DNA from: Aliarcobacter skirrowii CCUG 10374
GTDB lineage: Bacteria > Campylobacterota > Campylobacteria > Campylobacterales > Arcobacteraceae
Length of the DNA: 64,000 nt
Direction of reading: 5' to 3'
NCBI RefSeq assembly: GCF_003544835.1
Contig: NZ_CP032099.1
Coordinates: 1,860,001 to 1,924,000, forward strand
Made by a program: the position numbers and the translations under genes. The notes beneath the pieces were generated by a model that saw nothing but the letters and a program-made list of their open reading frames with translations, had not been told where the DNA came from and made no database searches. Shown here piece after piece: positions 56 through 40,786 of the stretch (its first letter is position 1; each line of letters begins with the position of its first letter).

Positions 56-60
56 AACAT
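56..60. repeat. Left target-site duplication (imperfect)
   Basis: AACAT lies immediately before the TGT that opens the transposon. The other flank, at 23147-23151, is AACCT. Tn7-like elements make 5-bp duplications, and four of the five bases agree. The mismatch is easily explained by drift in this copy, which is no longer coding. Confidence 0.65.
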
Positions 61-69
61 TGTGAGATT

Positions 70-203
70 CAGAATAATTTGATAATAGATTTTTCATACT
101 ATAAGTCCCTTTTTTTAAATGATTTTATAATAGTTTTTATTAAAATCAATTTTATATGTGTACAATAAAAATTGATAATATTAACAATCAGTGAGTCATA
201 ATA
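70..203 (+). repeat. Candidate TnsB-binding repeats, left-hand end
   Basis: Copies at 70-88 (15/19 to the middle repeat of the other end), 115-133 (weaker, 14/19 to the 70-88 copy) and 163-181 (17/19 to the same middle repeat), with a degenerate one near 185-203, all point inward from the transposon terminus at 61. The shared core is TTGATAAT or close to it. The sites are more widely spaced than at the other end, echoing the unequal ends of Tn7. Apart from this transposon end and the mnmG remnant, no gene is seen in 1-300. Confidence 0.55.
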
Positions 204-7224: not shown

Positions 7225-7893
7225 ATGGAAAATTCAGAAATAAAATTTTCTCAGCGTAAAATTAAAAAGAACTATCGTTCTATAACTGGACATTTTCCAA
7301 GTATTAAAAATAATACTTCAATAGGTTTTGAATCAAAACTTGAAAAAGCTCATTTTTTATCTCTAGAATTTGATAATGAAGTAATCTCATATCAAGAACA
7401 GCCTCAAATAGAGATATGTATCAATGGTAAAAATAAAATTTATAGTGCAGATTGTTATATCAAAAGAGCTAAAAACTCAAATAAAAAAGATAGTATTGTA
7501 GAAATTAAGTATACAAATGAAATAGAAAAAAGAAAAGATTACTTCGAAAAAAAATTTGAAGCTGCAAAAACTTCAGTAAATAAATTGAATCTTGATTTTG
7601 AAGTTTATACTGAAAAAATACATAGTGAAATATATTTAGATAATTTGGATTTTTTATATAGATACAAATTGCAATCTATTGAAAATAAATATGAAGATCA
7701 GATATTAAAGATACTTAATAAAAATAATAAAATATCTGCTTTTGACTTGGCAAACTTAATATCAAAAAACCCTATAGAATACGGACTTATTTCAAATTGT
7801 ATTTGGGATTTGGTATGCAAAGAAAAACTAAAAACTAATTTAGAGTTATCAAAAATTACTATGAATTCATTAGTGGAGCTATCTTATGAGTAA
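7225..7893 (+). CDS. tnsA: TnsA-like transposon endonuclease
   Basis: TnsA cuts the 5' ends of a Tn7-like element so that transposition is cut-and-paste. The 222-aa protein follows the family layout: FESKLEK with Glu36/Glu40, a YQEQP strand, YSADC with Asp76 and VEIKY with Glu93/Lys95, a restriction-enzyme-like catalytic core, then a C-terminal winged-helix region (about 150-222) that normally contacts TnsC. Its end overlaps tnsB by 8 bases. The 216 bases upstream are shared with the divergent ATPase gene and hold several degenerate matches to the transposon-end repeats, which could allow TnsB autoregulation. Confidence 0.88.
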   Translation: MENSEIKFSQRKIKKNYRSITGHFPSIKNNTSIGFESKLEKAHFLSLEFDNEVISYQEQPQIEICINGKNKIYSADCYIKRAKNSNKKDSIVEIKYTNEIEKRKDYFEKKFEAAKTSVNKLNLDFEVYTEKIHSEIYLDNLDFLYRYKLQSIENKYEDQILKILNKNNKISAFDLANLISKNPIEYGLISNCIWDLVCKEKLKTNLELSKITMNSLVELSYE

Positions 7894-9772
7894 TATAATT
7901 AAATTTGAAATTGATTCAAAAATATTTTATAAAGACTTAGAATATATCATTAAAGGTTATCCTTCTTTTAATGAAGTTTTACTCAAAAGAGATACTTCTC
8001 CATTTAATGAAAAAATCGTTAAAGTCCATGAACTAATAGTAGAGCCAAAAAATATAAAAGAAAATAAAAAAACATTAGTTGATCTAAGTGAAAAAGATTT
8101 TAATAAAGCAAACGAAAGATTTGAAATTATAAAATCTTTAATAGATAAAAAAGACCGAAGTGCAAATGATGTTTTAAAAATTGCCAAAAAATATAAAAAA
8201 GGTATTGCAACTATTTATAGATGGCTGAACACTTATGAGCAATATAGAAGTATTAGTTCTTTATCATCAAAAAGAGAATTTTGTGGAGCAAAAGGGAAAA
8301 GTAGATTAGATGAATCGGTTGATACTGTAATCAATGATGTTATTGAAGAATATTATTTAAATAAACAACAATATCCATTGCAAATGATTTATGATGAAAT
8401 AGTATATAAATGTAGAAATTTAAATATAAAAGCGCCTACTAAAAATACTCTACGAAACAGAATTAATAGCCTGCATCCAAAAATAATTGCTAAAAATAGA
8501 AAAGGTATAAAGATTAATGAAACAAGAGGAATGCCTAGCAATTTTCCTGAAGTAAAAATGCCTTTAGATATTATTCAAATAGATCATACTAAAGTTGATG
8601 TTATTTTAGTTGATGATGAAACAAGAAAACCAATTGGAAGACCATTTATTACAGTTGCTATTGATGTTTATAGTAGAATGATTTTTGGTTTTTATATATC
8701 TTTAGAAGCACCAAGTTATTTTAGTGTTGGACAATGTTTATTAAATGCAATTTTACCAAAAGATGATTTCATTAAAAAGTATGGAATTAAAGGAGAATGG
8801 CCAGTCTATGGATTACCAAAAAAAGTTCATATGGATAATGCTAAGGAATTTAGAAGTATAAGTTTACAAAACTTTTGTAAAGAATATAGAATCGAGGATA
8901 TTTATAGACCAGTAGCAAGACCTGAATTTGGTGGAGCAATAGAAAGAGTTATTGGTACATGTATGAAAAAAGTTCATACATTACCAGGAAGTACTTTTTC
9001 AAATATTTTTGAAAAAGGCAATTATGATTCTGATGGTAATGCTGTTATGACAATAGATAATTTAGAAAAATGGTATCTAGATTTTGTAATAAATGTTTAT
9101 CATAAAACAGAACATAGCTCTTTAGGAATGACTCCTGAAGAAAAATTTTATCAAGGTTTATATGGAGTTGGCGAAGACAAATCTATTCCATTTCTACCTG
9201 TAACTGTTGCAAATACTTTAAAACTTAGAATGGCTTTACTTCCTGGAATAAATAGAACTGTTCAAAAAAATGGAATTACAATTGATTATATTACTTATCT
9301 TAGTGAAACGCTTAGAAAATATATAATTCCAACTCAATATAAAAAATTAAAACCTGAATTGGGAAAAACTGTCATTTGCAGACGGGATCCAAGAGACATT
9401 AGTAAAATTTATATTTATGATGAAGATATACAAGATTATATAACTGTTCCATATGCTGATATAAGAAAACCTAAAATGAATTTATCAGAATTAAGAGCTG
9501 CTATTGCCGAAGCTAGAAAAAAAGTATCTGGAAGAGAGTTAGAACAGCATGATATTTTTGAAGCGCATGAAAGATTACACTCTTATGTTGCACAAGCAAA
9601 AGAAGAGAAAAAATTAGTAAGAAGAAAAGATAGTTCTAAAAAACATCAAGAAAAAACTTTAAAAAATGACCAAGATAGAATCGATTACAAAGAAAATCAA
9701 CCACTATCAAAAATTTACAACAATACAAATGATGAAGATGACTCAGATATTGAAATATATCCTATAGGCTAA
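7886..9772 (+). CDS. tnsB: TnsB/TniA DDE transposase
   Basis: The 628-aa transposase performs 3' end cleavage and strand transfer and binds the repeat arrays at both ends. An N-terminal HTH region (about 75-215) precedes the rve/DDE catalytic core. Catalytic residues are Asp233 (IIQIDHTKVD), Asp317 (VHMDNAKEF) and Glu353 (GGAIERVIGT). A Mu-type beta-barrel domain follows (about 440-520), ending in a basic, disordered TnsC-binding tail. Length is close to that of TnsB/TniA proteins. It overlaps tnsA and is 4 bases before tnsC, so the four genes form one operon. Confidence 0.93.
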   Translation: MSNIIKFEIDSKIFYKDLEYIIKGYPSFNEVLLKRDTSPFNEKIVKVHELIVEPKNIKENKKTLVDLSEKDFNKANERFEIIKSLIDKKDRSANDVLKIAKKYKKGIATIYRWLNTYEQYRSISSLSSKREFCGAKGKSRLDESVDTVINDVIEEYYLNKQQYPLQMIYDEIVYKCRNLNIKAPTKNTLRNRINSLHPKIIAKNRKGIKINETRGMPSNFPEVKMPLDIIQIDHTKVDVILVDDETRKPIGRPFITVAIDVYSRMIFGFYISLEAPSYFSVGQCLLNAILPKDDFIKKYGIKGEWPVYGLPKKVHMDNAKEFRSISLQNFCKEYRIEDIYRPVARPEFGGAIERVIGTCMKKVHTLPGSTFSNIFEKGNYDSDGNAVMTIDNLEKWYLDFVINVYHKTEHSSLGMTPEEKFYQGLYGVGEDKSIPFLPVTVANTLKLRMALLPGINRTVQKNGITIDYITYLSETLRKYIIPTQYKKLKPELGKTVICRRDPRDISKIYIYDEDIQDYITVPYADIRKPKMNLSELRAAIAEARKKVSGRELEQHDIFEAHERLHSYVAQAKEEKKLVRRKDSSKKHQEKTLKNDQDRIDYKENQPLSKIYNNTNDEDDSDIEIYPIG

Positions 9773-9776
9773 ATTT

Positions 9777-10646
9777 ATGAATGAAAGAAACTTAATATCA
9801 GAAGCTATTGAATACTTAAGTAAAAGTGATGAAGAGAGAATCTTATACTGTAAAAAAGACCATTGGATTGGTTATGGTGCAGCAGTTAAATTAATAGAAA
9901 TTTTAGAAGATAAATTTTTAGATCCACCTCAAATGAGACATGAAGGATTACTAATATATGGAGATTCAAATAATGGTAAAACTGCCATTCTAAAAAGAAT
10001 GTATGAATTACATAAAACAAAACTTGATTATGTCACAAAAGATGGTGAAGCAATTTATGAGATACCAATAATATATTTTCAAGCACCAACAATTCCTGAT
10101 GAAAGTAGATTATATAGCTTAATACTTGATGAACTTTGCGTACCACAAAATAGAGTTGATAAAGTTGCAACAAAATCTCATCTTGCTAAACATCATTTAA
10201 ATAAACTAGGTACTAAAATGATTTTAATAGATGAGATACATAGTTCATTAAGAGGTAATTTAAACAAACAAAGAACTTTTATAGATGATTTAAAACAATT
10301 AAGCAATAGCTTATCACTAACAATTGTTTTAGCAGGAACAAGAGAAGCATATTCTGCACTATCAATAGGGAATGAAACAAGTAGTAGATTTCCAGCACTT
10401 GAATTACCTAGGTGGAATAATGATAAAAAATTTAGATCATTTGTAGCAACATATGAAAGATGCTTACCTCTTAAACAAGCTTCAAATATGGCAAATAATC
10501 CAGAATTAGTTAGCAAATTATTTTATCAATCAGAAGGCTTAATTGGTAAAACTGTAAATTTATTAAAAAAAGCATCTATAAAAGCGATCCAATCAAAAAG
10601 AGAATATATTTCAGTTGATGATATAGAATATTTACCAAAGTTGTAA
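9777..10646 (+). CDS. tniB: TnsC/TniB AAA ATPase regulator
   Basis: The 289-aa AAA+ protein has Walker A YGDSNNGKT (61-69) and Walker B MILIDEIH (148-155, Asp152/Glu153). In Tn7-like systems this ATPase polymerises on target DNA, links the target selector TniQ to TnsA/TnsB and enforces target immunity. It is about half the length of Tn7 TnsC and matches the short TniB form of Tn5053/Tn6022-type elements. It sits 4 bases after tnsB and its stop is one base before tniQ. Confidence 0.9.
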   Translation: MNERNLISEAIEYLSKSDEERILYCKKDHWIGYGAAVKLIEILEDKFLDPPQMRHEGLLIYGDSNNGKTAILKRMYELHKTKLDYVTKDGEAIYEIPIIYFQAPTIPDESRLYSLILDELCVPQNRVDKVATKSHLAKHHLNKLGTKMILIDEIHSSLRGNLNKQRTFIDDLKQLSNSLSLTIVLAGTREAYSALSIGNETSSRFPALELPRWNNDKKFRSFVATYERCLPLKQASNMANNPELVSKLFYQSEGLIGKTVNLLKKASIKAIQSKREYISVDDIEYLPKL

Positions 10647-10647
10647 A

Positions 10648-11823
10648 ATGGCAAAAAGAAAAAGAGATACTTCATGGATTCAGAACTATTTCTTTTTGAT
10701 AGTTCCTCGACCTTTTGAAGATGAACTTTTAAGTTCTTGGCTAACAAGAGTTGCAATTGAACATAAACGAAAATTATCTATTTTTTTAAGTTTATATGTA
10801 AAAAAGGAAGGTAATTCTATTTCAAGAAATGATTTAGATTTTTTATATGATGAAAAGTTATTTGAAGCTTTAGTAAATAAATCAAATCTTACAAAAAAAG
10901 ATATTTTTAAAATGTCTTTAAGAAGTGAAGAAGGTTACCTATATTCTTGTAGTGATAATAATTTATATCCACCAAATCAAATTAGAAAACTTGTAGATAA
11001 AAGAAATCACTATGGACTAATGTATTGTCCCAAATGTTTAGCCGAAGATAAAATCCCATATTTTAGGAAAAAATGGAGATATCAATTTTATAATATTTGC
11101 ACAAAACATGAACTATTTTTAACAGATAGGTGCTGGGTATGCTATGAAAAAGTAAATTTTTCTAAAATAACTCACAACAAGAATTTAGCAATTTGTAGTA
11201 AATGTGAAAAAGATTTAAGAACATCTGTTTGCAAAAATATTGAAGATTATCATAGATATGGATTAGAAGCTACAAAATGGTTTGAAAAAGGATTAGAAGA
11301 TGGTTATTTTATAATTAACAATGAAATGATTCATTCTATTTATATTTTTAATAGTTTTAAAAGATTTATTTATTTAATCGATACAGCAGAAAAACTAATT
11401 TTAGATGATTTCCCATTAATTAATCAATATAAAGAAGTTTGTAAAAAAATCAACCTGTATAACTCCAAAAAAGCAAGTCTTATATATAAAGATTTTTACT
11501 TAACTTCAATGATTTATTTTTTATTTCAAAATTATCCATATAACCTTAAAAAATTTGCCAAAGATAATAATGTAACTTATAGAGATTTTTTTCATAGCTT
11601 AAAAGATACTTCTTTTTGGTACAAAAATTTAATCTTTGATTTGGTACCAATGGAAAACAAAAAAGGTAGAGAAATAGTTGAAAGCGAAGTATCAGGTGCA
11701 ATTAAATATTTAGAAAGTATAAATGAACGAGTTAATATTATAAATGTTGCTGAAGTTGTTGGATGTCATCCTAGTATTCATAAAAGATTTAATAAGATTT
11801 ATAAATTTTTAGTCAATATATAA
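10648..11823 (+). CDS. tniQ: TniQ/TnsD-like target selection protein
   Basis: The 391-aa protein opens with a TniQ domain (VPRPFEDELLSSWLTRVA, residues 19-36) and has zinc-binding clusters Cys127/Cys130, Cys151/His154, Cys162/Cys165 and Cys183/Cys186. The C-terminal half is helical and DNA-binding in relatives. TniQ/TnsD proteins recognise a fixed chromosomal site. Since the element sits in the 3' end of mnmG, this protein probably reads mnmG coding sequence; that is inference. It is shorter than Tn7 TnsD (about 500 aa). No CRISPR effector or array is present, so this is not a CRISPR-associated transposon. Confidence 0.9.
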   Translation: MAKRKRDTSWIQNYFFLIVPRPFEDELLSSWLTRVAIEHKRKLSIFLSLYVKKEGNSISRNDLDFLYDEKLFEALVNKSNLTKKDIFKMSLRSEEGYLYSCSDNNLYPPNQIRKLVDKRNHYGLMYCPKCLAEDKIPYFRKKWRYQFYNICTKHELFLTDRCWVCYEKVNFSKITHNKNLAICSKCEKDLRTSVCKNIEDYHRYGLEATKWFEKGLEDGYFIINNEMIHSIYIFNSFKRFIYLIDTAEKLILDDFPLINQYKEVCKKINLYNSKKASLIYKDFYLTSMIYFLFQNYPYNLKKFAKDNNVTYRDFFHSLKDTSFWYKNLIFDLVPMENKKGREIVESEVSGAIKYLESINERVNIINVAEVVGCHPSIHKRFNKIYKFLVNI

Positions 11824-11825
11824 AT

Positions 11826-11854
11826 TTAACTTTTAATACCATTTAAGATATAAT
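11826..11854 (+). promoter_or_regulatory. Candidate sigma-70 promoter for the ietA-ietS pair
   Basis: TTAACT (4/6 to TTGACA) is 17 bases from a perfect TATAAT at 11849-11854, and the ietA ATG follows at 11879. It gives the defence pair its own promoter, independent of the transposition operon ending at 11823. Confidence 0.5.
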
Positions 11855-11878
11855 GGTAAAAATTCAAGAAGAGGAATT

Positions 11879-12865
11879 ATGGCAAAAGCATCTCAGCTAA
11901 AAGCACTAATCAAATCACACTATGATAATGATTATACTAGATTTGATACTTTATCATTGCAAGTAGCTGCACATGAAGCTACACTTGGTAATAATTCCTT
12001 AGCACTAGAAGTAAAGAAACTTGTAGATAATTCAAAAAAGAATCGTACAGTAGAAGCGATTAATTCTAATAATGTAAAACTATACAATAATACTATTGAT
12101 GAGCTATTCATTCATTCAAGACCAATATTAGATATGTCTGAAATAATCCTTTCAACTTCTAATCATGATAAAATAGTAAAAATTTTAAATGAATATAACA
12201 ATCAAGAAAAATTAAAAAAACATGGATTAAAACATAGAAGAAAGATTCTATTATCTGGACATCCAGGTACTGGTAAAACAATGTCAGCTTCTATTATAGC
12301 TTCAGAACTTCATTTACCTTTATATGTAATACAAATAGATAAAATCATTACAAAATTTATGGGTGAAACTGGTGCAAAACTTAGACAAATATTCAAAATG
12401 ATAGAGATGCAAAAAGGTGTTTATTTTTTTGATGAATTTGATTCTATTGGTACCGATAGAAGTAAAGATAATGAAGTTGGAGAAATGAGAAGAGTATTAA
12501 ACTCATTTTTACAATTTTTAGAGAATGATAACTCTGATAGTTTAATAATCACAGCTACAAATAATATAGCTTTATTAGATAGAGCATTGTTTAGAAGATT
12601 TGATGATATTTTATATTATGATATACCAACAAAAGAAGAAATACTTAAACTTTTAAAACTAAGACTACAATCATTTACAGTTAATTTTGATTTAGAGAGT
12701 ATTTTACCTAAGGCTTCAGGATTAAGTCATGCAGATATTGTAAAAACATGTAATGATGCTATTAAAGAAGCAATTATCAATGATAAAAAGTATGTCTCTA
12801 AGACATCCTTAATTCACAACTTTGAAATTATAAAAGAATCGTATAAAAAAATTAGTGAGGCGTAA
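11879..12865 (+). CDS. ietA: AAA ATPase of an IetAS-like defence pair
   Basis: The 328-aa protein has a short helical N-terminal domain, then a classical AAA module: Walker A SGHPGTGKT (126-134), Walker B VYFFDEFD with Asp185/Glu186, sensor 1 (TATNN) and an arginine finger region (DRALFRRFDD). The module resembles that of FtsH and Vps4, but no protease or membrane segment is present. The subtilase gene starts 3 bases after its stop. An AAA ATPase coupled to a subtilisin-like protease is the IetAS arrangement, first seen in plasmid incompatibility and later reported as antiphage. The symbol is assigned by this pairing. Confidence 0.75.
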   Translation: MAKASQLKALIKSHYDNDYTRFDTLSLQVAAHEATLGNNSLALEVKKLVDNSKKNRTVEAINSNNVKLYNNTIDELFIHSRPILDMSEIILSTSNHDKIVKILNEYNNQEKLKKHGLKHRRKILLSGHPGTGKTMSASIIASELHLPLYVIQIDKIITKFMGETGAKLRQIFKMIEMQKGVYFFDEFDSIGTDRSKDNEVGEMRRVLNSFLQFLENDNSDSLIITATNNIALLDRALFRRFDDILYYDIPTKEEILKLLKLRLQSFTVNFDLESILPKASGLSHADIVKTCNDAIKEAIINDKKYVSKTSLIHNFEIIKESYKKISEA

Positions 12866-12868
12866 TAA

Positions 12869-15352
12869 ATGCCTGATTTAAGACCTTTATTTATTAGTGG
12901 ACAATGTAAAACTGATATAAGATTCACATCTCCTCAAAGAGGTGGAGGTAATTCAACTTTACCTTATAGAAATGCACCTGAACATGGAAATAGACTGTAT
13001 GGAAAATTACAATCTCTTTTAACTTCTCAAACTGAACTTATATCTCAGAATGAGTCTTTAAATAAAGGAATTTATTTAGAGGTTTTAGGGATAGAGGGGA
13101 TTGACTTAAATATAGAACCTCTTGAAAGTTCATCAAAAGATATTAGATTATCAAATTTTAAAAATACAAATCCACAAAAAGCTACACTATTTTTACCATT
13201 AGAGAAAAAAGATTTTTTAGAGAAAAAAATAAAAGAATATACAGAGAAATTAACTAAAAAAGGAAACCCAAGACATAATGATTTAATTGCGGTTATAGAA
13301 GATTTTAAAATTGCTACAATTAATTCATTTTGGAATGGTAAAGAAGATAAAATTCCTAGTGAAACTAAAGTATGGTGTGAAGTATGGTTAATTAATAATA
13401 AAAATACTCATGATGAAGATGTTATTTCAGAGTTTATAAATGTAACCCACACCAACAATATAGAAATTCGAACAGAATCAAATATAAAATTTCCAGAGAG
13501 AATAATAACTTTAGCAAAATTAAATGCTGAAGATATTTTGAATTTAATTGATTCATATCAATATTTAGCTGAAATAAGACCTTATGCAATACCAAATATA
13601 GCCTATACAAGTATGGAATACATCGACCAAAAAGAATGGGTAAATGAATTAAAAGATAGAGTGATTGTCGATTCAGATACTAAAGTTTCGATATGTATTT
13701 TAGACACTGGGGTAAATAATGTACACCCATTATTAAAAGATATCTTAAAAGATGAAGATAAACACACTTTTTTATCATCATGGGATGTAAATGATCACAA
13801 TGGTCATGGTACTGAAATGAGTGGGATAGCGGCTTATGGAGATTTGAATGAATATTTAACTACTACAGCAAATGTTGAATTAAATCATACTTTAGCATCA
13901 TATAAAATATTACCACCTACTGGAGACAATGAAGTAAACTTATGGGGATATATTACCTCTCAAGCCGTTTCGGAAAGAACTATTAAAGAATCTGGGAAAA
14001 TACATATATTCTCAATGTCTGTCACAGCAAATGATACAAATGGAGATATACCTGATGGTACTCCAAGTTCATGGTCATCTGCAATAGATAATGAACTATT
14101 TAATGGTGATACGAAAAAACTTTTTTGTATATCAGCAGGAAATGCAGACTATATCGATGATACATTCAATTATATTAGCAGTAATATAATGGCTCCAATA
14201 GAAAATCCAGCTCAATCTTGGAATGCTTTAACGATTGGAGCTTATACACAAAAAGATACCATTACAGATGAAGAAGATGAATACATTGATTATGATGTAG
14301 TAATGGCACAAAAAGATGAAATATCTCCATTTACAACAACTTCTTCTTTATGGGATAAACAATGGTGTATAAAACCTGATGTAGTATTTGAAGGTGGAAA
14401 TCTTTTGTTAAATACTACAAGAAACGATAAAACAGAACATGAAGATTTATCACTCTTAACAACCCATTCAAATATTTATAGAGATTTAATTACTTGGACA
14501 TTTGCAACAAGTGCAGCAAATGCAGTAGGAGCGAATTTTGTAGCAAGATTATATTCTACTTTTCCAGAAGCAACACCTCAAACAATTAGAGGGTTAGTTG
14601 TTCATTCGGCTAATTGGACAGATAAAATGATTGAACAATTTACAGTATCAGGGCAATCACCAAAAGATCTTTATGGAATATTATTAAGAACTTGTGGTTA
14701 TGGAGTACCTGATTTTGATAAGGCAGTGAATTGCTACAAAAATAGTTTAACTTTAATAGCAGAAGATACTATTCAACCATTTATTAAAATTGGTAGTGAT
14801 ATAAAAACAAATGTGATGAATCTTTATACTCTTCCATGGCCTAAAGAAGCATTAGAAGATTTAGGTTCTTTAGAAGTAGAAATGAGAGTTACTTTATCAT
14901 ACTTCATCGAACCAGCTCCAACAGAAATGGCTGTAAGTAGTTTTAATAGATATAACTATCCATCTCATGGGCTTAGATTTGAAGTAAATCACCCAAATGA
15001 AAGTATGCAAGAATTCAAAACTAGATGTAATAAACAAGATAGAACGGAAGACTATATATCAAGTGGTTTAAGTACATCAGATTATTGGAAAATTGGTAAA
15101 AATACAAGAGATAGAGGAAGTATAATATCTGATGTATGGAAAGGAAAAGCTGTAGAATTAGCTTCTTGTAATCACATCGCAGTATATCCAACAAATGGAT
15201 GGTGGAAAACAAGAAAACATTTAGAAGCTTATGATAATGTTACTAGATATACTTTAATTGTAAGTATTTATTCTCCATCTAATGATATTGATATATACAC
15301 ACCTGTACTTACACAAGTTACTATTCCAATACAAACTCAAATCCCAATATAA
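12869..15352 (+). CDS. ietS: Subtilisin-like (S8) serine protease, IetS-like
   Basis: The 827-aa protein has a ~260-residue N-terminal region of unknown fold, then an S8 peptidase domain with the triad Asp279 (CILDTGVNNVHP), His313 (NDHNGHGTEMSG) and Ser548 (TFATSAANA), plus an SAGN oxyanion asparagine near 425. The serine lies in an ATSAAN rather than the usual GTS context. No signal peptide is visible, so it is probably cytoplasmic, as expected for a regulated toxic protease. A ~200-residue C-terminal beta-rich region follows. The preceding AAA ATPase gene probably controls or licenses it. The intergenic 15353-15530 is AT-rich with no gene seen. Confidence 0.78.
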   Translation: MPDLRPLFISGQCKTDIRFTSPQRGGGNSTLPYRNAPEHGNRLYGKLQSLLTSQTELISQNESLNKGIYLEVLGIEGIDLNIEPLESSSKDIRLSNFKNTNPQKATLFLPLEKKDFLEKKIKEYTEKLTKKGNPRHNDLIAVIEDFKIATINSFWNGKEDKIPSETKVWCEVWLINNKNTHDEDVISEFINVTHTNNIEIRTESNIKFPERIITLAKLNAEDILNLIDSYQYLAEIRPYAIPNIAYTSMEYIDQKEWVNELKDRVIVDSDTKVSICILDTGVNNVHPLLKDILKDEDKHTFLSSWDVNDHNGHGTEMSGIAAYGDLNEYLTTTANVELNHTLASYKILPPTGDNEVNLWGYITSQAVSERTIKESGKIHIFSMSVTANDTNGDIPDGTPSSWSSAIDNELFNGDTKKLFCISAGNADYIDDTFNYISSNIMAPIENPAQSWNALTIGAYTQKDTITDEEDEYIDYDVVMAQKDEISPFTTTSSLWDKQWCIKPDVVFEGGNLLLNTTRNDKTEHEDLSLLTTHSNIYRDLITWTFATSAANAVGANFVARLYSTFPEATPQTIRGLVVHSANWTDKMIEQFTVSGQSPKDLYGILLRTCGYGVPDFDKAVNCYKNSLTLIAEDTIQPFIKIGSDIKTNVMNLYTLPWPKEALEDLGSLEVEMRVTLSYFIEPAPTEMAVSSFNRYNYPSHGLRFEVNHPNESMQEFKTRCNKQDRTEDYISSGLSTSDYWKIGKNTRDRGSIISDVWKGKAVELASCNHIAVYPTNGWWKTRKHLEAYDNVTRYTLIVSIYSPSNDIDIYTPVLTQVTIPIQTQIPI

Positions 15353-15530
15353 TTATTTTTATATTTTAAAATCATTTCCGAATTATACTTATTGCCTAAA
15401 TAAGATTATTTTATCATCTATTTATTATTAATTAGTCCTATTTAAATATTTTTTATAGTTAATCTTTCAATTAATCTTATTCTTAAAATTTTACTCCAAA
15501 CTAATGATAATAAAGAATTATGGATAATAT

Positions 15531-18500
15531 ATGTTAAAACCAAATTTAATTAAAATTCAAAATTTTATTAATATAGCATTAAAGAAAAAACCAATATCTT
15601 CTGAAACTTTAAATATATTTATTGATCAACTTAAATTATTGAATAACGTAAATCCTGAAGCAACTGAAGAAAATCAAAAAACATTTATAAGAGATTTTCT
15701 AATAAATACTTTTAATTATAAAATAAATACTTCTGGAGATATAGATTGGGCAATTTTTAATGAATTTAATAAAGTAGAAGTGATTATTGAAGTAAAAAGA
15801 ATCATAAATGAATCAGAAATGGTAAATAAAGAAAATTTTCTTAGAAAAGCATTTTTTGAAACAATATTATATTTCATGAAAGAAAGAAATCAAGGAAACG
15901 TAGATTTAAAACACATAATTATAACAAATGTTCATAATTGGTATATTATTGATGCATCTGAATATGAAAGAATTTTCTGGAATAATAAATTATTTAGAAA
16001 AAGATTTTTAGACTGGGAAAATAAAAAAACTTTAGATGATAGAACGGAGTTTTTCTATTTTTCAATTGCTAAACCTTTTTGTGAATCTTTATTAAATACC
16101 AGAAGGGAATCCTTATTTGATGATATCTATAATGAATTAATAGAAGTAAGTTCTTTTACATTAAAAGAACTTAATTATAATAATTCAGAGAACAATTTAA
16201 GTAATGTATATAAACTACTAAGCCCTGATACATTATTAAAAGATTTTACTCCCAATGATAGTAATTCTTTGAATAAAAACTTTTACGATGAATTACTTTA
16301 TATATTAGGATTAGAAGAAGCAAAAGTTAATGGTAAAAAAAGAATTATAAGAGTAAGAGAAAATAGACAAGATGGATCTTTCTTTGAAAATATTTATTCT
16401 AAACTTGATAGTTATAGTGAACTATCTAAAAATGAAGACAAAAACTTTAATAGCATAATTTCATTAATTATAGTCTGGTTAAATAGAATTATATTTTTAA
16501 AGCTTTTTGAAAATCAACTTACTGGATTTTCTAAAAATGAAAATTATGCTTTTCTTAAAAAAGAGTTTATTAAAGATTTTGGTGAACTTGAAAAGCTTTT
16601 CTTTCATGTATTATCTAAAAAACCAAATCAAAGAAATGAGGAAGTAAAAAAGAAATATAGTTTTATACCTTATCTAAATAGTTCACTTTTTGAACAATCT
16701 GAAGAAGAGAGAAAATTAATGCTTATTTCTCAACTCGATTCTACTTCAAAAATTAAAATTTATAAAAATACTGTTTTAAAAGATTTTAATGGTAAAAAGA
16801 TGTCTGGGGAGAGTAATCCTCTTCATTATTTATATGACTTTTTGAATTCATATAGTTTTGGAAGTTTAAATAATAGTAATACCATTGAAGACCAGCACAA
16901 AGAACTAATTAGCTCATCAGTATTGGGATTGATTTTTGAAAAAATAAATGGCTATAAAGACGGTAGTTTTTATACTCCAAGTTATATTACTACATTTATG
17001 TCAAAAAATATTCTAGAAAAAATAGTTGTAGATAAATTTAATGAAATCAAAGGTTGGAATTGTAATAATTTAAACGATTTGTATAATAAAATTGAAAATA
17101 TATCTGAAGCAAATGATATTATTAATAGTTTAAGAATATGTGATCCTGCAGTTGGAAGTGGGCACTATTTAGTTTCAATGCTAAATGAAATAATTAAATT
17201 AAAATCAGATTTGGGTATTCTAGAAGATAAAAATGGAAAGAAAATTAGAGATTATAAAATCTTAATAGAGAATGATGATTTAGCAATAAAAACTATAGAT
17301 AATGAATATTTTACTTATAAAAGGCCTAAGACCGTAAGCGATAATCATATTGTTCAAGAAACAATATTTTTAGAAAAACAAAAAATTATAGAAAATTGTT
17401 TATTTGGAGTTGATATAAATAGAAACTCTGTTAATATTTGTAGATTAAGATTATGGATAGAACTATTAAAACACACTTATTATACCGAGGAAAGTGGCTT
17501 TGAATATTTACAAATCTTACCGAATATTGATATAAATATTAAAGATGGAAATTCATTATTAAGTAAATTTCCATTAGTAGATAACGAAAATATACCAAAA
17601 CAAGTAAAAGAAAAAATAGATAACTATAAAGGGCTTGTAAAAGAGTATAAAAGTAGCAAGGATAAAATAGAGAAACATAAAATTAAAGAACATATACTTA
17701 ATTTAAGAAAAGAGTTATTCTTAGATTTCAACAATAATTCAAAACATGTTTTAAATTTAAAAAAATTACTTAATGGCTACACAAATAAGAAAGAAGTAAA
17801 AAAAGGTTATGTGCAACAATTTGGATACGAAGGTTTATCAAAAGAAATAGTATCAAATTATGTTAATGCAACATCTAATAGTTTATTTGATATTGCTAGT
17901 ACTATGACTAAATCTCAATTAGCTGAAGCACAAAAGATAAAAAATGATATGCTTAAAATTATTAATAAAATATACTTAGATATAAAAGAAATAGAAAGTA
18001 ATAAAATATATGAAAATTCTTTTGAATGGAGATTTGACTTCCCTGAGATCTTAGATAATGATGGAAAATTTTTAGGTTTTGATGCAATTATTGGAAATCC
18101 TCCATACATAAGAGAACCTGATAATAAAGAAGCTTTTATTGGATTACACGATGCATCTTGCTATAAAGGTAAAATAGATTTATGGTTTTTGTTTGCTTGT
18201 AAAGGAATAGATTTATTAAAAAACAATGGTAGATTGTCTTTTATTGCTACAAATAATTGGATTTCTAACTATGGAGCATCAAAATTTAGAAATAAAATTC
18301 TAAAGACTACTAAAATTGAAGAGTATATTGATTTTGGTGAGTATTTTGTTTTTGATAGTGCAGATGTTCTTACAATGATATTTACTCTTAAAAAAACAGA
18401 AAATATAGATGATTATTATTGTGAATATTCGAAAATATTAGATAAGACAATAAAAGAGGAAAATGTAAAAGAATTTTTAAACAAAGTACCACATAAAAAA

Positions 18501-19430
18501 ATACTATCATATAAATCATTGATGATTAATGAAAATTTAATTGATAAGAATATAGTTTTCTTAAATAATGATATTAAATCTATTTTAAATAAAATTGAAG
18601 AAAAAAAGAATTTTAAGTTAGATGAAAAAAATGAAATAACGAATGGCGTGCAAGTGCAACAAGAATTTGTTAATAAAAAATCTTTGGAGAAATTAGGGGA
18701 AAATTATAGATTAAATGAAGGTATTTTTATTTTATCAACAAAAGAATTAAAAAACTTAAACTTAAATTTGAATGAATTAGAAATAATAAAACCATTATAT
18801 ACTTCAACTGAAATTTATAGATACTGTACTCAAAAAGACAATAAATACTGGGTTATATATACTGATAGCAGTTTTAAGAATGTAGAAAAAATGCGGGATT
18901 ATCCAAATTTAAAATATCATTTAGATAGATTTAAAAATATTATCACAACAGATAATAAGCCTTATGGTATTCATAGAGCAAGAAATGAATATTTTTTTAA
19001 AGGAGATAAAATTTTATCTTTAAGAAAATGTGTAAATAGACCTTTGTTTAGCTATGTTGATTTTGATAGTTATGTAAATCAAGCATATTATGTAATAAAA
19101 TCAAATCGAATTAATTTAAAATATTTAACTGCACTTTTAAACTCTAAAATAATTACATTTTGGTTAAAGTATAAAGGGAAAATGCAAGGTGACAATTTTC
19201 AAATTGATAAAGAACCATTATTAAATTTACCAATTTTAAATATTGATAATAATCATATTTCAATGGATAATATCAATAATCTAATAGACAAAATTATTCT
19301 TATCTCAAGGCTTAATTCTACTGATAGTACAGAAGAAATAGTTAAGTTAGAAAATAATTTAAATAAAATATTTTATGAGTTATATAATCTCAATGATGAT
19401 GATATAGAAAAAATCGATGGAATTTATTAA
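15531..19430 (+). CDS. Eco57I-type single-chain restriction-methyltransferase
   Basis: The 1299-aa protein joins an N-terminal PD-(D/E)xK-like nuclease (Asp70/Asp72, then IIEVKR with Glu87 and Lys89) to a helical linker, a gamma-class N6-adenine methyltransferase (motif I DPAVGSGHY from 538; NPPYI from 856) and a C-terminal target-recognition region (about 1000-1290). One chain therefore both cuts and methylates, as in type IIG/IIL enzymes. PglX of BREX is a related methyltransferase, but the other BREX genes are absent. The frame is open throughout. Specificity cannot be read from sequence alone. Confidence 0.85.
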   Translation: MLKPNLIKIQNFINIALKKKPISSETLNIFIDQLKLLNNVNPEATEENQKTFIRDFLINTFNYKINTSGDIDWAIFNEFNKVEVIIEVKRIINESEMVNKENFLRKAFFETILYFMKERNQGNVDLKHIIITNVHNWYIIDASEYERIFWNNKLFRKRFLDWENKKTLDDRTEFFYFSIAKPFCESLLNTRRESLFDDIYNELIEVSSFTLKELNYNNSENNLSNVYKLLSPDTLLKDFTPNDSNSLNKNFYDELLYILGLEEAKVNGKKRIIRVRENRQDGSFFENIYSKLDSYSELSKNEDKNFNSIISLIIVWLNRIIFLKLFENQLTGFSKNENYAFLKKEFIKDFGELEKLFFHVLSKKPNQRNEEVKKKYSFIPYLNSSLFEQSEEERKLMLISQLDSTSKIKIYKNTVLKDFNGKKMSGESNPLHYLYDFLNSYSFGSLNNSNTIEDQHKELISSSVLGLIFEKINGYKDGSFYTPSYITTFMSKNILEKIVVDKFNEIKGWNCNNLNDLYNKIENISEANDIINSLRICDPAVGSGHYLVSMLNEIIKLKSDLGILEDKNGKKIRDYKILIENDDLAIKTIDNEYFTYKRPKTVSDNHIVQETIFLEKQKIIENCLFGVDINRNSVNICRLRLWIELLKHTYYTEESGFEYLQILPNIDINIKDGNSLLSKFPLVDNENIPKQVKEKIDNYKGLVKEYKSSKDKIEKHKIKEHILNLRKELFLDFNNNSKHVLNLKKLLNGYTNKKEVKKGYVQQFGYEGLSKEIVSNYVNATSNSLFDIASTMTKSQLAEAQKIKNDMLKIINKIYLDIKEIESNKIYENSFEWRFDFPEILDNDGKFLGFDAIIGNPPYIREPDNKEAFIGLHDASCYKGKIDLWFLFACKGIDLLKNNGRLSFIATNNWISNYGASKFRNKILKTTKIEEYIDFGEYFVFDSADVLTMIFTLKKTENIDDYYCEYSKILDKTIKEENVKEFLNKVPHKKILSYKSLMINENLIDKNIVFLNNDIKSILNKIEEKKNFKLDEKNEITNGVQVQQEFVNKKSLEKLGENYRLNEGIFILSTKELKNLNLNLNELEIIKPLYTSTEIYRYCTQKDNKYWVIYTDSSFKNVEKMRDYPNLKYHLDRFKNIITTDNKPYGIHRARNEYFFKGDKILSLRKCVNRPLFSYVDFDSYVNQAYYVIKSNRINLKYLTALLNSKIITFWLKYKGKMQGDNFQIDKEPLLNLPILNIDNNHISMDNINNLIDKIILISRLNSTDSTEEIVKLENNLNKIFYELYNLNDDDIEKIDGIY

Positions 19431-19446
19431 AGAAGTATAATTCTTT

Positions 19447-19463
19447 ATTATCGTTAATTGATT
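19447..19463 (+). repeat. Direct repeat, copy 1, upstream of the recombinase
   Basis: ATTATCGTTAATTGATT occurs here and again at 20533-20549, and the match extends to 20/21 with the next bases. The pair brackets the tyrosine recombinase gene, 1086 bases apart. It could be a recombinase crossover site, a trace of integration of that gene, or an internal transposase site. Confidence 0.6.
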
Positions 19464-19562
19464 CTATCAAAATAATTCTAAAATAATATATAAAACTCTC
19501 ATACTTCATAGCATTAAAAGTAACTAATAACTAAACTCCCACTTTTAATTTAAAGGAGTTAC

Positions 19563-20489
19563 ATGGTATTACCAAAAGCAATTGAAAAATTTAGATTTCA
19601 TTGTGTTTATGAAAAGAATCTAAGTTTAAAAACTATGCATGCTTACGATGCAGATTTAAATCAATTTTTAGAGAAATTTAAAAATTATAAAATAAATGAA
19701 ATATCAAAATTTGATCTAAAAGATTATGTTGAAAGTTTATTTAACCATCCTTACAAAATAAAAACTATAAAACGAAAAATAGCGGTATTAAAAACTTTTT
19801 TTAATTACCTAGAGTTTGATGAAATTTTAGAAATAAATCCATTTAGAAAATTAAGACTGTCTCTAAAAGAACCAAAATTACTACCTAAAACACTAGATAT
19901 TAAAGAAATTAAAACTATTTTAAAATATCTATATGATTTAAAAAATATTTATGATAAATCTACTTTTAGATACAACCTTCTAGTAAGAGATATAGTTACC
20001 ATTGAAATATTATTTTCAACTGGAATAAGAGTATCTGAACTATCAAATTTAAAGAAAAATGAAATAAATATAAAGCAAGGCATTATCAAAATATTTGGCA
20101 AAGGCTCAAAAGAAAGAATAATGCAAATCTGCGACAAAGAAGTTTTACTATTATTAAAAGAGTACTGCATATTATTTAAAATAAAAGATAATGAAACTAA
20201 ACATTTTTTACTAAATAGATTAAATAACAATTTTTCAGAACAATCTATTAGAGCTATGATACATAAATATGAAGAAAAATTAGGTCTAAAAAGTGTTACT
20301 CCTCATATGTTTAGGCACTCTTTTGCAACACTACTCCTAGAAGAAGGAGTGGATGTAAGATATATCCAAAATATGTTGGGACATTCTTCAATATCAACTA
20401 CCCAAATCTATACAAAAGTAAATACAAAGCATCAAAGAAAATTACTCAATACAAAACATCCAAGAAGAACTCTAAATTTTCTTAATTAA
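19563..20489 (+). CDS. Xer-like tyrosine recombinase
   Basis: The 308-aa recombinase has an N-terminal SAM-like core-binding domain (about 1-95) and a catalytic domain with Arg156 (STGIRVSEL), Lys180 region (GKGSKER), His248 and Arg251 ([10 protein letters not shown]), His274 (MLGHSS) and nucleophile Tyr283 (TTQIYTKV). All residues needed for DNA cleavage and rejoining are present. It has a good AAAGGAG site before the ATG. Size and motifs resemble XerC/XerD more than phage integrases. It sits alone between two copies of a 17-bp direct repeat, inside the transposon, so it is probably an accessory recombinase for dimer resolution or a nested cassette. Confidence 0.85.
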
Positions 20490-20494
20490 TAATA

Positions 20495-20517
20495 AACTAG
20501 ACTTAAAAAGTCTAGTT
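20495..20517 (+). terminator. Hairpin after the recombinase gene
   Basis: Perfect 10-bp arms (20495-20504 and 20508-20517) with an AAA loop begin 5 bases after the recombinase stop. No U-tract follows, so termination strength is uncertain. Confidence 0.5.
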
Positions 20518-20532
20518 ACTCCAAGTAAATTA

Positions 20533-20549
20533 ATTATCGTTAATTGATT
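20533..20549 (+). repeat. Direct repeat, copy 2, downstream of the recombinase
   Basis: This is the second copy of the 17-bp sequence at 19447-19463, in the same orientation. It contains a CG step, which is rare in this AT-rich intergenic DNA, so chance repetition is unlikely. Confidence 0.6.
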
Positions 20550-20665
20550 TTATACAAAGGTTACTAAATTTATTATTATAAAAATAATTATTTCATCTAA
20601 TTATTTACCCTAAAAAAGTGGCAAAGTAAACTAAACTATATTAGTTAAAATCCTATTGTATTATT

Positions 20666-21362: not shown

Positions 21363-23060
21363 CTAGATTTTTTTCAATAAATTAAAATACCACATTGCAA
21401 GTTGCTTATCTTCTAAATCTTCATTTCTTTCATGATATTTTCTATCAAATGTAGGATTAGAATTCGAATATCTTTGTTTTATTTCAAGTGGATTCATATT
21501 ATATTTACAATATAAATTGATAAATTTATTAAAATCACTATCTTGAATTTGTCTATTGGATGTTAGTACCCAAGTAGAGCTTGCAGAAGATGGTTTATTT
21601 TCTAACTCTAATAATCCAAAAAAATAGTTGTCATACTGGAATGTAACAGTTATATATTTTCTAGCTCTTTTATTGATTTTACATTTAGGATTAATTTGCT
21701 TTTTACCATCTTCAACATCTAAAGTAAATTGTTGTAACTCTTTCTCTTCACTTATATATAAATCTTTTATATCTTTTCTTTGTACTAAATATCTAATATA
21801 TTGTCTAAATACTACAAAATTATCTATTTCATTTAATGGATTATATGAAGTATCTTTAACAAATTCACTTGAAATTACAACCTTTCTAATATTTGAATTC
21901 CCTTTTGAAGATGATTGTGTTAAGCTTAGATCTATTATTTCATCACTTTCTTGGTCTTTATATATTTTTAATAGATTTTCAATAACTTCTAATGATGATT
22001 CTTTTTCATCAACTTGAATATCTTTTAGGCTACCACAACTCTTTTTTCTATTCTTTTGATTAGATGTTTGTGTATATTTTTTACTAGCATGAGCTATTTG
22101 AAGTATTTCTGTTGTTTCATCTGGTACTTCTCTTTCTATAACTGGAAGATTATCTATATCATCAATATTTAGAGTTATTTTATTTTTTTGAATATATTTT
22201 GTGAGTTTTTCGAATCCTATACTAGAATAATCATTTATAATTTCATGAATAAAGTAATAAATTTCATTTGTAACTTTATTTTTAATAATTGAACTTCTTG
22301 TATCGATTTTAAATTGTTCTTTTGTTGGAAAATTAAATTTAAGATGCATTTTATAAATATCTTCATCTAAATTTTTTTCTTGCATATACTTCAAGTAATT
22401 ATGAATATAGCTAGATACATTATCAAACTCTTTAATTGCACTTTTTTGACAAGCAAATCTATGTATAATAGCTGCATCTTCATCTGTTTTATATTTAGGC
22501 AAAACTATCTTTGCATCTTTAGGATTATCATCACAAAGTATATATAATTCTTTCAATGTTGAATCAAGAACAGCTTCTTTTAAAGCAGAAGATCTAAAAT
22601 AGTAATATATACCAATTGCAAAATGTGGGATAATTAAATTAACACCATCTATTTCTACTAGGTAACAATTTATATTTTCAGCAGTCTTTAGATATTTTTT
22701 ATTCCAACCAAGCAATATTCCAATTGCATCTTCATTTAGTAAATCTTTTAATTTTTTTAAATTATTTTCATTAATAGTTTTTGAATCAATAATAAAACTT
22801 TTTTCTTCTATACTATTTTTTCTATCAACTTTTTTACCATTTTCATAGTACTCTAAAAATTGATAATGCGTGAAAAATAATTCAGGTGATACTGGGTATT
22901 TAAATACTTCTTTTTTAGTTATATTTTTAACAACTACTTCATAGTTACTATTACCATATTTATCTTCATCAAGTACAATTTTAAGGGGAAATATGAACTG
23001 AAAAGTATCATCAGGATTATTCTTCATAAACTCTGGAATGATACTTTTTCTAGTTGACAT
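21363..23060 (-). CDS. Probable TnsE-like transposition protein
   Basis: The 565-aa protein is not a confident family match. Its layout recalls Tn7 TnsE (about 540 aa): a central NLIIPHFAIGIYYYFRSSALKEAVL block (141-165) corresponds to the TnsE P-x-x-x-x-A-x-x-x-F-x-x-S-x-L region. A C-terminal part (about 405-565) starts with a NPLNEID segment and contains ARKYITVTFQYDNYFFGLLELE followed by STWVL. A charged Ser/Lys-rich linker (about 315-370) separates the halves. In Tn7, TnsE directs insertion into replicating DNA, favouring conjugal plasmids. Position supports this: it is the outermost gene of the element, facing in from the end in mnmG. Unlike Tn7, it is not next to tniQ. Confidence 0.55.
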   Translation of the reverse strand: MSTRKSIIPEFMKNNPDDTFQFIFPLKIVLDEDKYGNSNYEVVVKNITKKEVFKYPVSPELFFTHYQFLEYYENGKKVDRKNSIEEKSFIIDSKTINENNLKKLKDLLNEDAIGILLGWNKKYLKTAENINCYLVEIDGVNLIIPHFAIGIYYYFRSSALKEAVLDSTLKELYILCDDNPKDAKIVLPKYKTDEDAAIIHRFACQKSAIKEFDNVSSYIHNYLKYMQEKNLDEDIYKMHLKFNFPTKEQFKIDTRSSIIKNKVTNEIYYFIHEIINDYSSIGFEKLTKYIQKNKITLNIDDIDNLPVIEREVPDETTEILQIAHASKKYTQTSNQKNRKKSCGSLKDIQVDEKESSLEVIENLLKIYKDQESDEIIDLSLTQSSSKGNSNIRKVVISSEFVKDTSYNPLNEIDNFVVFRQYIRYLVQRKDIKDLYISEEKELQQFTLDVEDGKKQINPKCKINKRARKYITVTFQYDNYFFGLLELENKPSSASSTWVLTSNRQIQDSDFNKFINLYCKYNMNPLEIKQRYSNSNPTFDRKYHERNEDLEDKQLAMWYFNLLKKI

Positions 23061-23074
23061 GATTAAATAATTCT

Positions 23075-23136
23075 CTCATTATCATTTTTTATTTTACATA
23101 TTATCAATTTATATTGACTCATTATCATTTTTTATT
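23075..23136 (-). repeat. Three tandem TnsB-type repeats at the mnmG end
   Basis: Three 19-bp units lie at 23075-23093, 23097-23115 and 23118-23136, with starts 22 and 21 bases apart. The outer two are identical (CTCATTATCATTTTTTATT on the plus strand) and the middle one agrees at 15/19. Read inward from the terminus at 23146, the first unit begins after ten bases, as in the Tn7 right end. They fill the gap between the TnsE-like start and the mnmG stop; the outermost unit encodes the final Asn-Lys-Lys-stop of MnmG. Confidence 0.75.
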
Positions 23137-39309: not shown

Positions 39310-39714
39310 ATGAATAACAATTTTTTACGAATAATCGACGCAAACCTTAATAGACTTAGAGAAGGAATTCGAGTTGTTGAGGATATTTTTAGATATGTAT
39401 ATAATGATAAGGAATTATCTACTAAACTAAAAGATTTGAGGCATCTTGCAAGAGTTGAGAACTTTTATGAAATTTTAGAGTCAAGAGATGTTCAAAATGA
39501 TGTTTTAAGAGAGTCTATTAAAAGTGAACAAAATAGAGAAGATTTAAACTCAATTTTAATTGCAAACTTCAAAAGAGCTCAAGAGAGTTCAAGAGTTTTA
39601 GAAGAGCTTACAAAACTTTCATCTATTAAAGATAGTGAAAACTTTAAATATATAAGATATGAACTCTATATTTTAGAGAGCGTTTTAACAAAAATAACTT
39701 CAAACTCTAAATAG
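39310..39714 (+). CDS. ThiD2-family protein (thiamine biosynthesis)
   Basis: A 134-aa all-alpha protein with the RIIDANLNRLREGIRVVEDIFRY opening and the NFKRAQESSRVLEEL block characteristic of the ThiD2 family, often found fused to ThiE and formerly called thiamine-phosphate pyrophosphorylase. Family members are reported to act on hydroxymethylpyrimidine phosphate. Here it stands alone, without the ThiE barrel. Its last 49 bases overlap the convergent bioC gene. Confidence 0.75.
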   Translation: MNNNFLRIIDANLNRLREGIRVVEDIFRYVYNDKELSTKLKDLRHLARVENFYEILESRDVQNDVLRESIKSEQNREDLNSILIANFKRAQESSRVLEELTKLSSIKDSENFKYIRYELYILESVLTKITSNSK

Positions 39715-40358
39715 TTTAAGTTATACTCTTTATACAATCTTTTTGCACTTTCATAAGATAGTTCGCTACTACCACTTACACCTGATTTTTTAATATAATC
39801 AAAAAGCTCTTTTTTGTTATCAAACTCTAATTTATAATTTATAGTCTCAAATTCACAAATAAAATATTTGTTAAAAGCTTTTTTTATACTATTTTCATCA
39901 AGAATTGGTGATCTATTTTTGCTTATATTTTGAATTGTTTTAAATGTATTTGAGGTAAATAAAACTGCATTTATCTCTTTTGTAATTTTAGATAGATGTT
40001 CTACTAACTTTTCTAAATCTGCAGACCATTGAAGAGCTGATGAAGATAATACAATATCAAAGTTTTGATTTTTTGTGTAGTCTATAAACTCTTGAGAATC
40101 AAAATTTAAACTTTTCAACTCTAGATTCTTTGCCTTAGGATGAAGATTACACATCTGTTTTGAACCATCAATAGCTAAGTATCTATCAAAATCCCAACTG
40201 ATATTTGAAAAAACCTGACCACTACCGCAACCTAACTCTAAAATATTTTTAGGTTTTGATTTTAGCTCACGAATCAAAGATTTTGCACAAATTTGTTGGA
40301 TTATATTATATGATTGATACTCTTTTGCATATTTTGAGAATTGATTTTTTTTTTGCAT
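39666..40358 (-). CDS. bioC: Malonyl-ACP O-methyltransferase BioC-like
   Basis: A 230-aa SAM-dependent methyltransferase with motif I ILELGCGSGQVF (39-50) and the SSSALQWSADLEKLVEHL block typical of BioC, which methylates malonyl-ACP to start the pimelate moiety of biotin. The N-terminal KNQFSKYAKEYQSYNIIQ also fits. No other biotin gene is adjacent. It is slightly shorter than E. coli BioC (251 aa). Generic methyltransferase remains possible. Confidence 0.75.
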   Translation of the reverse strand: MQKKNQFSKYAKEYQSYNIIQQICAKSLIRELKSKPKNILELGCGSGQVFSNISWDFDRYLAIDGSKQMCNLHPKAKNLELKSLNFDSQEFIDYTKNQNFDIVLSSSALQWSADLEKLVEHLSKITKEINAVLFTSNTFKTIQNISKNRSPILDENSIKKAFNKYFICEFETINYKLEFDNKKELFDYIKKSGVSGSSELSYESAKRLYKEYNLNYLEFEVIFVKTLSKI

Positions 40359-40453
40359 TGTTCTCTTTAAAAAAAAATTTAATATACATTTTATCTATTT
40401 TAAATTTAGTTTTGGATAAAATAAACACCATTTTTAAAAAAGGAATATAGATA

Positions 40454-40786
40454 ATGACATCTACACTTTTAATAGTTCAAATTGTTTTAGCGGTGCTAAT
40501 TGTAATTGTAGTTCTACTTCAAAAGAGCTCAAGTATTGGTTTAGGAGCATATAGCGGAAGCAATGACTCTGTGTTTGGGGCAAAAGGTCCTGCTAACTTC
40601 TTATCAAAAGCAACTATGGCTTTAGGTATTGTATTTGTAATCAATACATTAATTTTAGGTTATTTATATAATCAAGAGAGAAATAAAAGTGCAATTGATA
40701 GCGTAAAAATTGAATCGCTAATTCCTTCAAGTCCAATTACTGAAACAAAAGAGAACACAGCACCAGCTGCACCACAAACTAAGTAA
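40454..40786 (+). CDS. secG: Protein translocase subunit SecG
   Basis: The 110-aa protein has two membrane helices (about 4-24 and 53-73) separated by the conserved [34 protein letters not shown] loop, the SecG hallmark. It assists SecYE in export. A Pro/Ala-rich tail follows. It precedes frr by 19 bases at the head of a plus-strand run. Confidence 0.93.

Follow-up and report, generated by a model that had tools for sequence, protein, structure and literature searches.

The window analysed here, a stretch of 64,000 nt from Aliarcobacter skirrowii CCUG 10374, carries a gene for a XerC/XerD-like tyrosine recombinase preceded by a type IIG restriction-methyltransferase gene (Table 1). The type IIG protein matches the PDLC03612 REase_MTase_IIG model (E 7.9e-251 over residues 6-1296), in keeping with predicted restriction and methylase regions in one polypeptide, as expected for this class. 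On the far side, genes for an AAA ATPase and a subtilase come after tnsABC-tniQ (7225-15352). In a related genome, G056, the Tn7 genes lie close to the module, and the window's ATPase/subtilase DNA has no match there. On the right, a 565-aa gene without any match in Pfam or NCBIfam is separated from the 3′ end of gidA by a segment holding a 24-nt direct repeat (92%; 23070-23136). Comparison with the closest relative, G027, places the left flank of its locus at window 60-183 and the right flank at window 21367 onward. Hence, about 21 kb of variable genes are bounded by conserved flanks next to gidA, and the locus is a chromosomal island. The variable part (60-21367) comprises C5-methylase-like and TIR-like ORFs (named by eye), a HATPase gene, the Tn7 genes and the module studied below.

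Table 1 Features of the recombinase locus (window coordinates)
Feature	Position	Strand	Remarks
Tn7-like tnsA, tnsB, tnsC/tniB, tniQ	7225..11823	+	Pfam; collinear in G056; far side of the module
Distal site GATAA-TAAAGAA-TTAT(G)	15506..15522	+	9 nt before the type IIG start codon
Type IIG restriction-methyltransferase gene, 1299 aa; predicted invertible segment	15531..19430	+	Eco57I domain, E 2.4e-33
Proximal site GATAA-TAAAGAA-TTAT(A)	19436..19452	-	Same spacer as the distal site and inverted to it; inverted block ends at 19452
Upstream copy of the direct repeat	19447..19463	+	Inner arm and flank of the proximal recombination site; identical in G027
Leader between proximal site and recombinase	19453..19562	.	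Putative place of divergent promoters
XerC/XerD-like tyrosine recombinase, 308 aa; putative invertase	19563..20489	+	PF00589, E 1.7e-37
Leader-like relic	20530..20603	+	Contains the downstream repeat copy (20533-20549); second site arm degraded
565-aa gene beside gidA, right anchor of the locus	21363..23060	-	Collinear in G027 and G056

The recombinase ORF is the only gene between two copies of a 17-bp direct repeat, ATTATCGTTAATTGATT, both on the + strand and identical at 17/17 positions; the alignment extends to 20/21 matching bases. Positions, match and the single enclosed gene are thus as the original prediction had them. A search allowing up to two mismatches found two copies in the whole 1.97-Mb genome. 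Exact 17-mer direct repeats at most 1.3 kb apart form three sets in the window (19447/20533, 23075/23118 and 39566/40516), compared with a mean of 0.03 in 60 Markov-shuffled windows, one of which contained any; the repeat exceeds chance expectation. The third set belongs to an exact 18-nt direct repeat at 39566-40533, with copies 950 nt apart, outside the recombinase locus.

The recombinase possesses residues R156, K180, H248, R251, H274 and Y283, common to a paralogue of the same genome, which we take to be the catalytic R-K-H-R-H-Y set of the Phage_integrase fold. Its best-scoring models are XerC and XerD, yet it falls below the NCBIfam cut-offs of both (TIGR02224, 231 vs 335.15 bits; TIGR02225, 227.7 vs 329.6 bits). 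It also stays below the cut-offs of the tyrosine-type DNA invertase model NF007370, of the FimB/FimE type (59.8 vs 221 bits), and of the integron integrase model TIGR02249 (100.9 vs 265 bits). The solved structure 5jjv of XerH, the recombinase of the Campylobacterota dif system, is matched with an E value of 1.4e-12. XerH is a tyrosine recombinase too, but the probable host XerH is a separate 350-aa gene near 1.019 Mb of the chromosome (G000:C1), 30% identical to the window's recombinase. A second copy at 780610-781533 is 56% identical to it.

Homologues at E ≤1e-50 were found in 17 of the 104 genomes of a family-level survey, own genome included. A scan of GTDB contigs with the single recombinase protein gave no match; with a two-row alignment it gave at least 90 relatives, and the best 80 were kept as loci. 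By record titles these 80 belong to Campylobacterota, Bacteroidota, Ignavibacteria, Clostridia, Paenibacillus and others, though single assignments may be wrong, as many relatives are MAGs. Viral contigs yielded four distant loci (27-46% identity), and a phage collection three unannotated records (43-45% identity). In one relative, G082 (L128, near 9304-9966), the match covers residues 1-218 only and is directly followed by tniB-like sequence, which suggests that a Tn7-like element took part in an insertion or a fusion. In L088 (5965-7720), a partial recombinase and its site are directly duplicated (score 810) beside an AAA/STAND-like module. In a Micavibrio MAG (L032), direct repeats about 46 nt long, several of them recurring every 76 nt, lie about 170-1540 nt 5′ of the recombinase and look by eye like a CRISPR array.

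Recombination sites and modules

In many homologues, a motif with the core GATAA-N7-TTAT, whose commonest outer arm is TGAATAAAG, is located just 3′ of the recombinase and recurs in inverted orientation at a distance of some kilobases. In the window, the corresponding pair, which the original prediction had missed, is formed by two identical 16-mers, GATAATAAAGAATTAT, at 15506-15521 (+) and 19437-19452 (-), 3.9 kb apart. They enclose a single gene, the type IIG restriction-methylase. Exactly two copies occur in the genome at up to one mismatch, both at this gene. About 110 bp separate the proximal site from the start of the recombinase gene, and the site overlaps the upstream repeat copy. The second recombinase of the genome has its own pair, AATAATAGGATATTAT, again with exactly two copies, around a GNAT/methyltransferase gene pair. 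By length alone, the inverted 16-mer pair of the window is not significant in such an AT-rich stretch (three pairs within 5 kb in window 4001-26000, vs a shuffle mean of 0.68 and a maximum of 7); what gives it weight is how it compares across genomes. Since the partner site is inverted and lies 3.9 kb upstream, the predicted reaction is an inversion of the type IIG gene.

We surveyed 100 regions, comprising 18 regions with G handles, the second locus of the genome, the window and the best 80 GTDB loci; they are not fully independent, as L029 is apparently the G100 locus and L054 and L055 share their layout. Site pairs were accepted when identical or with one mismatch, one copy lying at most 450 nt from the recombinase. 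An inverted pair was found in 44 of the 100 regions and a direct pair in 2, and with 25 shuffled arm patterns, 1.24 regions scored on average (maximum 10, for one pattern). The motif gave no pair in 56 regions, some of them shortened by contig ends; among regions with at least 5 kb downstream, a pair was present in 40/64 and absent in 24/64. A 4-nt spacer variant of the motif scored in 31/100 regions, which is taken to reflect putative overlapping TTAT words in the same sites; spacers of 5, 6, 8, 9 and 10 nt scored in 0 to 3. As the site is nearly palindromic, the counts of facing and outward sites (44 and 43 of 100) are uninformative, and the orientation statistic compares inverted with direct pairs only.

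Taking the shortest of alternative pairs in L068 and L088, the 50 pairs delimit 47 modules, 46 of which were used for the column identities of the site. Genes run in both directions in 40 of the 47, convergently in 39 (L078 being the exception), and convergent genes mostly touch or overlap at their ends. The single-direction modules have genes starting at the proximal site only (four) or at the distal site only (three, the window among them). The nearest start codon is found between -25 and +30 nt of the site in 39/44 proximal and 38/43 distal cases. When module genes were clustered, 16 of the 24 multi-locus clusters were met in both orientations and 8 in one only. In addition, contigs end within 200 nt 3′ of the recombinase in 19 of the 80 GTDB loci (three inside the gene), compared with 3/80 upstream; we attribute this to assemblies breaking at a site where the sequenced populations would hold both orientations.

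Module contents are diverse: type IIG genes, an EcoRI-type methylase with a GmrSD/HNH nuclease, a type IIG-like methylase with a specificity subunit, AAA/STAND-like ATPases paired with ATP-grasp (D-Ala ligase-like) genes, GNAT with methyltransferase, radical SAM with TPR ATPase, and SIR2-STALD with TIR, a Thoeris-like pair (L072). Convergent partners belong to different clusters and families. In PADLOC, the SIR2 gene of L072 matches ThsA (E 1e-98), and the TIR gene matches PDC-S66 (1.6e-13) and ThsB (8.8e-10). Altogether, 7 of 20 module proteins have PADLOC matches at E ≤0.001, which supports a defence role for a minority of them. A 760-aa module gene of G056 has no match in Pfam, NCBIfam or PADLOC. 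In Acetobacterium paludosum (L081, 6975-10835), inverted sites enclose a radical SAM gene and, convergent with it, a gene for an ATPase that contains TPRs; neither protein was matched in PADLOC.

Natural inversions between genomes

Six nucleotide comparisons were made: the window against G027, and five pairs chosen because their proteins already showed opposite orientations. All five are natural inversions. The window and G056 are collinear in their Tn7 genes, recombinase and gidA region, while the type IIG segment is reversed: window 15499-19452 aligns in inverted orientation with G056 14460-18426 (77.9% identity), and the block ends at the sites. A case within one species is offered by two A. 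cryaerophilus plasmids, pM830MA and pACRY43158, which carry the same recombinase accession and flanks that are 99.8-99.9% identical. There, a 3.46-kb segment between predicted AATAATAGGATATTAT sites is inverted at 99.9% identity. The other three pairs are G000b/G012a, G027/G078 and G014/G060. Comparison across genomes shows that the sites come in pairs, that the pairs are inverted, and that natural inversions have their ends there.

A gene in the distal orientation in pM830MA is annotated as two ORFs (L133, 1937-4407); on pACRY43158 it is proximal and forms one ORF, a split that perhaps reflects relaxed selection on a putatively silent side. The second module of the A. skirrowii genome (L006, G000:C1:774000-788000), a convergent GNAT/methyltransferase pair between its sites, is oriented opposite to its relative on an A. 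faecis plasmid.

The window and G027 carry unrelated modules, so that this sixth comparison provides no inversion test. In G027, a 92% identical recombinase sits at the same place between two modules, the left one with spacer TAAAGAA and the right one with TTTAAGA. G056 also has two modules (spacers TAAAGTA and TTAAGAA), and the window has the left one only.

Such differences could mean that inversion, although real, is a by-product, and that the sites serve the capture and exchange of modules at a platform, as in an integron with its cassettes. Close relatives differing in module content at the same place (the window and G027) would fit, as would similar modules in distant taxa, on plasmids and near Tn7 genes. 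However, the sites are inverted rather than direct, so a single cassette could not be excised by them alone. Start codons at the sites and tail-to-tail gene ends in most modules are moreover what selection on expression would produce. We therefore regard the platform as an unlikely main function, although it is the best placed of the alternatives. An integron proper was rejected, as the integrase model stays below its cut-off and the 44 inverted vs 2 direct pairs depart from the direct orientation of cassette sites.

The original prediction had also offered resolution of transposon cointegrates, which here would involve the neighbouring Tn7-like element. The tnsABC-tniQ genes lie in the same island, and resolvases of the tyrosine or serine type are found in some Tn7-like elements (PMC8649781). 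But tnsA is present in the window, so that there is no obvious need for the recombinase in resolving cointegrates, and G027 has recombinase, sites and modules at the same place without Tn7 genes in the 34.9 kb read. A Tn7-like resolvase would go with an element lacking tnsA and would occur with the transposon, a combination that was not found; Tn7-type genes were seen within the 1.5-kb flanks of other homologues at two loci (L025, L028). This role is very improbable.

The direct repeat around the recombinase gene

The two copies of the direct repeat differ in their relation to the recombination sites. The upstream copy is probably part of the recombinase's own site, so the prediction that the repeat is the site of the enzyme probably holds for this copy and is not supported for the other. 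In the downstream copy, the second arm is degraded and the spacer reads TTAATTT, vs TAAAGAA at the inverted pair. It occupies the place of the right-hand site of G027, but it is reversed, has lost the second arm and differs in its spacer.

When the sequence around the downstream copy (20530-20603) was aligned with the recombinase leader, the match ran from 19444 onward and scored 27, vs a maximum of 23 in 200 shuffles. It also aligns with the G027 leader above shuffles (0/200, as for the window's own leader). No alignment above shuffles was obtained with the leaders of G056 (p 0.165) and G078 (0.67), or with downstream flanks. These alignments are most simply read as traces of a duplication of the recombinase leader, of which the downstream copy would be a remnant.

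Alternatively, the repeat might have no other role than to regulate the recombinase promoter, for example as an operator. The upstream copy does lie about 100 bp before the gene, and it is kept in G027 and partly in G056. It overlaps, however, the end of a block exactly inverted between genomes, and we give this alternative very little credence.

Self-excision of the recombinase gene as a 1.1-kb circle, suggested by an exact 17-bp repeat on both sides, is the least credible reading of all, because the downstream arm and spacer are mismatched, the partner site that does match lies 3.9 kb upstream in inverted orientation, and the arrangement is rare. An excisable single-gene element, which requires a direct pair of sites, both intact and sharing one spacer, was rejected on these grounds. 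In 300-nt flanks at 100 loci, several shortened by contig ends, a direct repeat brackets the gene at just two, the window itself and L049, where it accompanies two tandem recombinases, which explain it. The original prediction was to fall if the repeat were absent near orthologous recombinases, and this is largely what was found.

A putative inversion switch

The features expected of a tyrosine-recombinase DNA invertase are found together at these loci: the fold with its residues, inverted sites with matched spacers, and both orientations ending at the sites. We consider it highly likely, on the strength of these comparisons, that the recombinase is an invertase that flips the type IIG gene between inverted sites of the same spacer, probably as an expression switch. 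Within this reading, we infer both that the Xer-like recombinase itself catalyses the inversion and that inversion switches expression.

The recombinase would act on short sites made of an arm, GATAA, a 7-bp spacer and TTAT, and the segment between two opposed sites of the same spacer would be inverted; in the window, this would be the type IIG gene. A promoter beside or within the recombinase region would read the gene that starts at the proximal site (ON), and a gene starting at the distal site would be silent (OFF). Single-direction modules would then be ON/OFF switches, and convergent modules either/or switches. The type IIG gene of the window is probably now in the OFF or less expressed, distal orientation, and that of G056 in the other. 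A scan with promoter consensus sequences performed no better than shuffles (56 promoter-like sites vs 46.6, sd 8.5), and an external promoter on the distal side could make both states ON. In addition, the SIR2/TIR pair of L072 looks like two parts of one system, which a strict either/or switch would disable.

More broadly, and with distinctly less assurance, we think it probable that these loci are self-contained flip modules found across phyla. One Xer-like recombinase would serve one or two modules, told apart by their 7-bp spacers, and would toggle whole genes either/or so that only the recombinase-adjacent gene is made, defence-type genes and Thoeris-like halves included. A module would contain either a complete restriction system or unrelated genes placed tail to tail, their start codons at the sites. 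Species would exchange such modules, and plasmids and the surroundings of Tn7-like elements would harbour them.

Type IIG enzymes of Campylobacter jejuni vary in phase by slippage in a homopolymer tract. The likeness is a varying type IIG enzyme in a campylobacterotal host, and the difference is that site-specific inversion would be used here instead. In the vpma locus of Mycoplasma agalactiae, the Xer1 tyrosine recombinase brings about inversions that join a gene to a single promoter (PMC2268961). As here, a dedicated Xer-type recombinase adjoins the locus, and the sites lie in 5′ untranslated regions, just as the start codons of most modules lie near their sites. Whereas vpma is an array of one surface-lipoprotein family, each module described here is bounded by two sites and holds a single gene, a small operon or convergent genes unrelated to one another. 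Several modules carry restriction or other defence-type genes, and the convergent partners do not form a paralogous family.

In Ureaplasma, the adjacent ORFs of mba/UU376 and UU172/UU171 are expressed alternately through inversion at short inverted repeats (PMC3047005), and UU172/UU171 run in opposite directions, like the genes of the convergent modules. There, a 5′ coding region is fused to either surface-protein ORF, whereas here whole genes flip. The vpma and the Ureaplasma inversions, of all described mechanisms the nearest to this one, both act on surface proteins (PMC2268961, PMC3047005). Phase-variable type I restriction-modification loci also rely on a tyrosine recombinase, such as pneumococcal PsrA, which inverts DNA at a restriction-modification locus (PMC4948785, PMC7096588); hsdS specificity genes are recombined there, and a whole restriction gene or system would be flipped here. 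A survey of inversions describes small intergenic switches and hsdS loci (PMC5903667). Overall, the system is a cross-phylum variant of known invertase switches. We found no description of this arrangement in the open-licence literature searched, which is weak evidence of novelty.

Recombinases often adjoin anti-phage genes, with a function in defence that is stated to be unknown (PMC12529663). Our reading offers a function for the recurring Xer-like recombinase of defence-type islands, and the short sites predict which neighbouring genes are switched. It also poses a puzzle, namely the reason for either/or control of convergent partners such as the SIR2 and TIR genes. Restriction systems, AAA/STAND-like ATPases, ATP-grasp and Thoeris-like genes may differ among the cells of one clone, and isolates, assemblies and phage-sensitivity tests could therefore capture one of two states.
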